Positions 12,887-54,876 of a stretch of DNA of 63,586 nucleotides are shown piece after piece. The notes under the pieces were generated by a model. It had not been told where the DNA came from and did not search any database. It was given only the letters and a program-made list of their open reading frames with translations. The stretch is from Bacillus sp. J37 (GTDB lineage: Bacteria > Bacillota > Bacilli > Bacillales > Bacillaceae). Positions within the stretch are counted from its first letter, which is position 1, and every line of letters starts with the position of its first letter. Location of the stretch: positions 1 through 63,586 of the forward strand of contig NZ_JAEK01000024.1 of NCBI RefSeq assembly GCF_000518865.1, given 5' to 3'. The translations under genes and the position numbers were made by a program.

Positions 12887-13155
12887 AACTATATTTAAAG
12901 CGTTGATAAGGAGAGTAGAGTTTTATTTCCTTCTTAGAGAGAACCCTCAGAGGCTGGAAGGGGTTTAAGAGAAATAATTCTTGAAATGCACCTTTGAGTC
13001 TTTTACTAAACGTCCTTTTAAGCGACTAGTAAGTAAAAGCGTGTCGCTCTACGTTACAGAGCTAAAGTTGAGGTGAGAGGAAATACGTCTTTTACCTAAA
13101 CAGAGTGGAACCGCGCATCAAAGCGTCTCTGTCATTGTACAGAGGCGCTTTTTTA
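12887..13155 (+). ncRNA. Cysteine T-box leader with terminator
   Basis: tRNA-sensing riboswitch. The T-box sequence AGAGTGGAACCGCG lies at 13102-13115, including the TGGAACC that would pair with uncharged tRNA. The intrinsic terminator is a 12-bp stem at 13121-13132 and 13139-13150 with one T-G wobble, then T6. The likely specifier is TGC at 12987-12989, in the standard context GAA-codon-ACC, so it should read tRNA-Cys. This matches the cysE-cysS genes it controls: uncharged tRNA-Cys would favour read-through. Confidence 0.92.
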
Positions 13156-20727: not shown

Positions 20728-20866
20728 TGTTGTTTAAATGAATATCGCTATACCGTAGACAGTAGGTGCAATCAGCTTAAATATCCTACCGAGGTGTATT
20801 TACGAATAAAGCATGTTTTGCTTATTGTATATACAAAACCTCCATGTCTATCGTGGAGGTTTTTTA
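20728..20866 (+). ncRNA. Ribosomal protein L10 leader with attenuator
   Basis: Autoregulatory leader of the Firmicute rplJ operon. The characteristic CCGTAGACAGTAGGTGC is at about 20755-20771, followed by the AAATATCCTACCGAGGTG arm. A terminator follows: AAAACCTCCA (20835-20844) pairs with TGGAGGTTTT (20854-20863), then TT. Excess L10(L12)4 is expected to stabilise the terminating form. Confidence 0.85.
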
Positions 20867-20919
20867 ATGACCAACACCGAACGGTACTAGTGTTACATGA
20901 ATCTACAGGAGGTGTAACA

Positions 20920-30406: not shown

Positions 30407-30454
30407 ATTCAAGGTGCTCAATCTTAAACCTGTTGCTTTGGAGGATATTTGATT

Positions 30455-31227
<773 letters not shown>

Positions 31228-35554: not shown

Positions 35555-35995
<441 letters not shown>

Positions 35996-46179: not shown

Positions 46180-47600
<1,421 letters not shown>

Positions 47601-47602
47601 AT

Positions 47603-47900
47603 GAAGGTGACATTACTTATTTTAGATCGGGACTTCCATTCCTGGTGTGTATATGCTTGTCTAGCACCGACTGGATGAGCTATAATATATGCGCCAATTG
47701 AAAAGGAATTCGTTTTTTTGACGGAGAAAAGCGAAAGTTTCTCTCTCTGATTAAAGGGATGCTCATCATCAAGAATTACTAATTAGCGTATCTCCAGAAG
47801 TTCAGACAGTATAATGGAAACATGTCGTATGACAAATGGAAGTTTGTCGATGAGCAAGTTACTGATTTGAAGAAGGGAGAACAGTTCAATGGCAAAAGAC
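47603..47900 (+). pseudogene. Decayed KOW-domain RNA-binding protein gene (ybzG-like)
   Basis: In Bacillus a small KOW-domain protein gene normally lies between map and infA. Here pieces resembling it appear in order but in three frames: FFDGEKRKF at 47714-47740, ISVSPEVQ at 47782-47805, ETCRMTNG at 47817-47840, and [13 protein letters not shown] at 47840-47878. The first and last share a frame but are split by stops. Stops, two frame changes and an apparent small deletion near 47840 make a working product unlikely. Assignment rests on my recollection of the family; sequencing error cannot explain all changes. Confidence 0.6.
47657..47686 (+). promoter_or_regulatory. Possible promoter upstream of infA
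   Basis: TTGTCT (47657-47662), 18-nt spacer, perfect TATAAT (47681-47686), inside the decayed gene. It could now drive infA and the alpha operon. Confidence 0.55.
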
Positions 47901-48107
47901 GATGTAATTGAAGTTGAAGGAACTGTTATTGAAACATTACCAAATGCAATGTTTAAGGTAGAACTAGAGAACGGTCATACGGTTTTAGCGCATGTATCCG
48001 GAAAGATTCGCATGCATTTCATTCGTATTTTACCAGGAGACAAAGTTACGGTAGAATTATCTCCATATGATTTAACTCGTGGCAGAATTACGTACCGTTT
48101 TAAATAA
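47889..48107 (+). CDS. infA: Translation initiation factor IF-1
   Basis: A-site blocking initiation factor; 72 residues, OB-fold. [22 protein letters not shown] start and [19 protein letters not shown] core. GAAGGGAG upstream, within the remnant of the broken neighbour. Confidence 0.97.
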
Positions 48108-54332: not shown

Positions 54333-54348
54333 ATCTAATGGTATGTAT

Positions 54349-54876
<528 letters not shown>

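Follow-up and report, generated by a model that had tools for sequence, protein, structure and literature searches.

A pseudogene of oapB between map and infA retains a conserved 3' element, a candidate leader RNA of infA

What remains between map and infA in the ribosomal operon of the soil bacterium Bacillus sp. J37, and why is one part of it kept while the rest decays? The window analysed is the whole stretch of 63,586 nucleotides, to which all coordinates refer. Its closest named loci by Map protein are those of Metabacillus niabensis (99%) and M. halosaccharovorans (98%), and the genus below means Metabacillus. Loci are designated L and genomes G.

The two flanking genes are intact, and the gap between them measures 288 bp, vs 305-353 bp in the loci counted as intact. 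The functional frame of OapB (about 100 amino acids with a KOW motif) is absent from this gap, the longest plus-strand ORF being of 29 amino acids. The following features were distinguished:

46854..47600, + strand: map, methionine aminopeptidase, intact (Pfam PF00557, E 8.8e-59)
47889..48107, + strand: infA, initiation factor IF1, intact (Pfam PF01176, E 8.6e-30)
47601..47888, + strand: oapB/ybzG fossil (KOW, L14e-like, OLE-associated protein B), from alignment with intact oapB and gap lengths
47702..47779, + strand: fossil piece with FFDGEKRKF (47714-47740), profile positions 38-48, 5.6 bits (hmmsearch)
47755..47814, + strand: fossil piece with ISVSPEVQ, profile positions 55-70, stop included, 5.5 bits (hmmsearch)
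47787..47867 (end computed from length), + strand: fossil piece with ETCRMTNG, profile positions 69-84, 10.6 bits (hmmsearch)
47783..47911, + strand: fourth fossil piece, profile positions 77-106, stop included, 19.3 bits (hmmsearch; overlap geometry)

A preliminary description of this DNA had reported four peptide pieces of one small protein, in order and in three frames, and all of them are present. Searched separately, not joined, against the OapB profile, as that description had proposed, the pieces matched in gene order, and neither their summed score nor their top score was reached in 200 shuffles of the region in two-base blocks (best shuffled piece 4.2 bits). The frame of the fourth piece (47783..47911) extends past the infA start, like many living oapB genes. 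Pfam scanning of two open fossil pieces (47601-47678 and 47822-47911) returned no family. A six-frame search of the genome, a draft of 96 contigs, gave no OapB match at E <= 0.001 and missed at this threshold the window's fossil itself; no second copy was found, and an oapB paralogue elsewhere in the genome was rejected on this result. By sequence comparison, the feature is an oapB (ybzG) pseudogene. It represents the KOW gene of the map-infA position, dead here and intact in other genera of the family, which agrees with its first identification.

Intact oapB was defined by length alone, as a frame of at least 98 amino acids. Among the 138 loci examined, 6 of them without a readable map-infA junction, 70 carry a frame of 100-116 amino acids between map and infA, and in all 70 the oapB stop lies between -4 and +23 of the infA start, a geometry of translational coupling. 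The intact gene at this place in L020 matches PDB 7k9b, OLE-associated protein B (E 2.4e-34), and weakly resembles archaeal/eukaryotic L14e; two intact genes scored under the cut-off of the L14e model and gave 20.1 and 24.5 bits with the Pfam KOW motif (cut-off 22.3). A 2009 re-annotation describes ybzG as L14e-like (PMC2885750), and YbzG is renamed OapB in papers on OLE (PMC9723947, PMC12054373).

Every readable map-infA junction of the genus is broken (20 of 20 in 21 genomes, G020 having no readable junction), with gaps of 112-308 bp. Sequencing error was therefore rejected in favour of an old fossil, the near-identical named loci L040 and L041 being broken as well. OLE RNA (RF01071) was not found in the 21 genomes of the genus; among 60 relatives, 18 have it. 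Across 249 sampled genomes of the order, all 147 with OLE have a strong OapB match, and the 102 without it comprise 24 with a strong match, 10 with a weak or broken one and 68 with none; the strong/weak cut was set by us, ten matches at E 2.5e-22 or weaker being counted as broken, and the OLE searches used stricter filters, with which weak matches can be lost. The co-distribution is significant (Fisher 1.5e-43, relatedness not being corrected for), and within this sample loss of oapB is confined to genomes where OLE RNA was not found. The OLE/OapB correlation has been published (PMC11332333); that paper also describes OapB occurring without OLE and, in reduced gut clades, OLE occurring without OapB.

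Nine members of genus g16 were sampled: OLE and oapB occur together in six, oapB alone in two, and in the ninth, G275, OLE is absent and oapB is reduced to a remnant. This last loss is recent, as the other sampled members of its genus have oapB. Since no OLE-positive genome lacks a strong OapB match (0 of 147) and 24 of the 102 OLE-negative ones keep one, the g16 pattern pointing the same way, it seems that OLE is lost first and that oapB dies later, an order that bears on the role of OapB where OLE is absent. The tree of losses was built from 102 of 110 loci, eight duplicates being dropped, and rooted on Exiguobacterium; it requires 14 losses of oapB if loss is irreversible, and 10 changes under parsimony without that assumption. 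The loss had at first been described as unusual. This was not borne out: with about 14 events among 102 loci, confined to genomes without detected OLE, loss of oapB is ordinary.

Three side observations concern these loci. Despite the dead oapB and OLE RNA not being found, the window holds an intact frame of 84 amino acids between rpoC and rpsL (30449-30703), which we take from its position to be ybxF (oapC, L7Ae-like). A second conserved stretch in the fossil, at 47605-47617 (AAGGTGACAT), is shorter and less strict than the element described below. It lies right after map and is likely the old oapB ribosome-binding site; most of the 20 genus fossils retain it, although no long frame follows it. 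Locus L052, titled Chryseobacterium sp. ISL-80, has a Bacillaceae-type ribosomal operon and falls in a clade with Cytobacillus oceanisediminis and Mesobacillus loci, so that the record is probably mislabelled or contaminated.

The fossil decays unevenly, as a sliding divergence profile computed along the gap also indicates, and its 3' end holds the following feature:

47787..47891, + strand: conserved element, candidate leader with a possible RNA hairpin covering the infA Shine-Dalgarno sequence (covariance model, rate tests)

The covariance model of this element gave one match in the window's genome (116.6 bits, E 2.1e-24; the window's sequence is in the model). Matches, one in each genome, were obtained in 161 of the 249 genomes, with the same stricter filters under which weak matches can be lost; in living genes they also reflect the coding sequence.

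Six near-duplicates among the 20 genus loci were set aside, and rates over all pairs were computed for the other 14, with block limits drawn after the alignment was seen. The two halves of the element differ by 0.104 and 0.050, the map yardsticks in the same loci being 0.473 at fourfold sites and 0.062 at codon positions 1+2. Divergence reaches 0.358 with 38% gaps in the 5' part of the fossil, 0.288 with 18% gaps in the 45 nt preceding the element, and a p-distance of 0.455 with 39% gaps in the apical loop between its halves. Five subclades were then represented by one pair each, the block limits again being drawn on the known alignment. Apart from the Shine-Dalgarno sequence, the arms had changed at 14 of 364 sites (11 of the 14 changes coming from L005-L009 alone, a pair in which the 5' arm shows small shifts), vs 84 of 778 in the upstream fossil (P 5.8e-5) and 129 of 517 at map fourfold sites (P 3e-19). 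The upstream fossil is itself slower than map fourfold sites in these close pairs (0.108 vs 0.250, P 4e-11), which makes the neutral yardstick imperfect.

Living oapB genes were examined for synonymous constraint using 46 of the 70 intact genes (95% identity filter), the expected codon identity being taken from map of the same species. In 13 genes of nearby genera, picked by eye as near, codon identity is 1.44-1.61 times that expected in both halves of the element. The gene start is raised as well, at 1.55; the apical loop stands at 0.95 and codon columns 16-63 at 0.72-1.27. The signal does not extend over the whole order: for the 5' half, Halobacillus-type genes give 1.07-1.28 and the far group 0.95-1.13, and constraint in both sets is limited to the end near the ribosome-binding site.

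Of nine aligned fossil groups, eight retain the 5' arm, with an identity of 0.81-1.00, the upstream part being kept at 0.00-0.95 with an identity of 0.50-0.65; the arm alignment fails in Ectobacillus (0.00), where the arm is visible by eye. The 60-64-bp gap of two Ectobacillus species consists of little beyond the two arms and the ribosome-binding site, and in G275 nearly everything upstream of the element is deleted and the element spared. By our reading of the alignments, the element is kept in eight of the 14 loss lineages; the six without it are five of Mesobacillus/Cytobacillus type and one Exiguobacterium. By these rates, the element is under nucleotide-level constraint beyond neutral, in dead genes and in near living ones, and because the gene is dead, the pattern in the fossil is not due to the protein.

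The element is predicted to fold into a long hairpin with these parts:

47791..47795, + strand: UCUCC, 5' half of the closing stem (folding; present in 20/20 genus loci)
47801..47811, + strand: 5' arm of the middle stem, UUCAGACAGUA (folding)
47830..47849, + strand: inner stem UGACAAA / UUUGUCG, with an apical loop varying in length and letters between species (folding)
47859..47871, + strand: 3' arm of the middle stem, UUACUGAUUUGAA (folding)
47875..47880, + strand: infA Shine-Dalgarno GGGAGA, 3' half of the closing stem (folding, Shine-Dalgarno pairing)

In this prediction, GGAGA (47876-47880) of the infA Shine-Dalgarno sequence pairs with UCUCC, UUCAGAaCAGUA pairs with UUACUGauUUGAA, and UGACAAA/UUUGUC forms the inner stem, whose loop is the variable segment between the conserved halves. 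All 39 elements examined have a fold energy under the mean of 200 shuffles, with z <= -2 in 28 of them and -3.07 in the window (L001); these elements were chosen for holding TCTCC, so that invariance of the closing stem among them is partly by choice, which does not apply to the 20 genus loci with UCUCC. Of the 13 near living genes, nine have a lower fold energy than at least 55 of their 60 synonymous recodings; seven of nine Halobacillus-type genes fold no better than their recodings, and two do.

The predicted pairing of the Shine-Dalgarno sequence is 0.80 (4 of 5 bases) in each of the 15 genus loci given. Among the 13 near living genes it reaches at least 0.80 in 11, the exceptions being L026 (0.46) and L127 (0.40). 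Judged for single loci, this pairing rarely exceeds the controls and is not significant. With 60 shuffles per locus, the cases in which no more than 3 shuffles paired as highly were two of the 15 genus loci, three of the 13 near living genes and none among nine other fossils or four Priestia/Ectobacillus fossils; this run covered one Halobacillus-type locus, ten others of that group and the far group being outside it. With 60 synonymous recodings, the same held for 1 of the 13 near genes. Compensatory evolution of the stems was rejected, none of 23 pairs changing on both sides; the covariation score was reached by 367 of 500 shuffles and the percentage paired by 480 of 500. Covariation does not support the fold, the arms being too conserved for such a test. 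As drawn, 98% of cells pair, vs 24-46% when the structure is slid, a control that favours a structure derived from the same sequences. The hairpin is a prediction from folding.

Mesobacillus-type fossils lack the element, with a Shine-Dalgarno pairing of 0.49 vs 0.54 in shuffles, and an equivalent hairpin first seen there by eye was dropped, not being the predicted fold. One of them, L070, covers the Shine-Dalgarno sequence with a different stem (1.00; 0 of 60 shuffles as high). Another observation concerns L054 (Metabacillus mangrovi) and L051 (Bacillus sp. SJS), a loss lineage apart from the window's genus, in whose leader the outer arms are kept but two unrelated hairpins stand in place of the inner one.

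The conserved block might instead be DNA rather than RNA, namely a promoter or protein-binding site for infA with the TATAAT at 47810-47815 as its -10. The hexamer at this place is TATAAT, TATAGT or TATATT in 19 of the 20 genus fossils and TATAGA in L028, and Mesobacillus-type fossils have a TATAAT elsewhere in the gap. Against this, the scan gives no plus-strand -35 for this hexamer, four intact relatives have TATAAG, TATATA, TATAAA or TATTAA at its place, Ectobacillus and Priestia are without TATAAT though the flanking arm is kept, and two conserved halves around a variable loop would be left unexplained; we regard such a site as unlikely. The promoter core that the preliminary description had placed inside the gene is another one, TATAAT at 47681-47686 with TTGTCT 18 bp upstream. 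That hexamer is present, but its reading as a new promoter did not hold: it is kept only in L001-L003 (98% identical) and not in the 94%-identical L004, and promoter-like sites over 2.4 kb are as numerous as by chance (10 vs 7.7 +/- 3.0 in shuffles). A sigma-70 promoter at 47681 was rejected on its lack of conservation. As an observation on another group, Mesobacillus/Cytobacillus-type fossils (L048, L049, L052, L053, L055, L057-L059, L062, L099) hold a different oapB remnant, the KOW region, and share an extended -10-like TGATATAAT or TGTTATAAT; they may have turned another part of the dead oapB into a promoter.

Simple decay of oapB, in which the conserved 3' part would reflect recent death and the needs of the infA ribosome-binding site, is disfavoured by the rates and appears quite improbable. 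It would account for the last ~20 nt, which are that ribosome-binding site, and it gains from the recent loss in at least one genome elsewhere (G275) and from the slowness of the upstream fossil relative to fourfold sites in close pairs. It is at odds with a 5' part that has reached 36% difference and 38% gaps in the genus with arms near 5-10%, and with the few changes in the arms of the five close pairs even when the Shine-Dalgarno sequence is set aside. Conservation moreover sets in about 100 nt before the start codon and lies on both sides of a loop that changes fast, and near living genes show synonymous constraint over these segments.

A conserved micro-ORF or leader peptide overlapping infA, keeping translational coupling after the death of oapB, is a very unlikely reading: a frame of 26-79 amino acids running into infA is the longest in 11 of 20 genus loci, but the gaps of L009, L016 and L017 have no frame above 18 amino acids, and element lengths differ by non-multiples of three, so that no single frame spans both halves. 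An antisense promoter on the minus strand (TTGTCA from 47835, TATACT to 47808), giving an RNA against map/oapB, has both hexamers in the conserved 5' half and is among the two best matches of the 2.4-kb scan (10 of 12), but we give it hardly any credence, as it leaves the 3' half and the UCUCC..UUCAG arm unexplained, its hexamers are lost in L051/L054/L124 while the arms stay, and the number of promoter-like sites is near chance.

The explanation that we favour is an oapB pseudogene with a persisting nested translational leader of infA, to which we assign a probability of roughly 0.6. Under this explanation, oapB would have died once the lineage no longer needed it for the OLE RNP. The 3' third of the gene would have had a second job as RNA, forming a long imperfect hairpin closed by UCUCC/GGAGA over the infA Shine-Dalgarno sequence and holding infA translation down. 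In species with a living oapB, its frame runs through the predicted hairpin to the infA start, and ribosomes finishing oapB may open it, so that synthesis of IF1 would be coupled to the message upstream. Once oapB was dead, the protein constraint would have gone and the RNA element stayed, possibly as a stand-alone leader setting infA translation via its own folding or some binder. Coupling would not be the only use of the element, because it persists after the upstream gene has died. Control of infA by the element is what we infer from its position and predicted fold. For the wider proposal, an undescribed leader RNA of infA (IF1) that evolved inside the oapB coding sequence, outlived the gene in some eight independent losses and regulates IF1 synthesis across a section of the Bacillaceae and relatives, we see about even chances.

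If the element controls infA, the ribosomal operon of these bacteria has an extra control point for IF1; on the wider proposal, decay of the surrounding protein gene would have brought a functional RNA to light. Searches for bacterial leaders mostly look at intergenic DNA; a leader nested in a gene is easily missed, and here gene death exposes the element. An Rfam search over 47601-47888 gave no match at E <= 1 and none at gathering score, nor was any found in five relatives. A literature search, largely outside subscription journals, found no title or abstract describing such an infA leader.

The window holds the following matches at Rfam gathering score:

78-145: Bacillaceae-1 RNA
12894-13133: T-box
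20735-20874: L10 leader
35569-35674: S10-type leader
54340-54398: L13 leader

A sub-threshold match to the alpha-operon ribosome-binding site (RF00140; 48208-48312, 35.2 bits vs a gathering score of 38, E 2.4e-6) was also noted; it spans the rpmJ end and the rpsM start, and much of its score seems to come from the latter.

Three known systems are comparable. OapB/YbzG (PDB 7k9b and others) shares with the fossil the map-infA position of the intact gene and the order in which the fossil pieces match its profile; the window's genus differs in that its copies are broken and its genomes gave no OLE RNA match. The Firmicutes ribosomal-protein leaders (Rfam L10, L13 and S10-type), all three in the window and in the same gene cluster as the element, resemble it in being conserved, probably structured and directly upstream of a translation gene; the element differs in lying outside the Rfam families and, in relatives, inside a protein-coding gene rather than in intergenic DNA. 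Hairpins located inside an upstream gene and covering the downstream Shine-Dalgarno sequence are a general mechanism of translational coupling. The likeness here is that the Shine-Dalgarno sequence is predicted to pair with upstream coding sequence and that the upstream stop lies at the downstream start; the difference is that the element persists after the death of the upstream gene.
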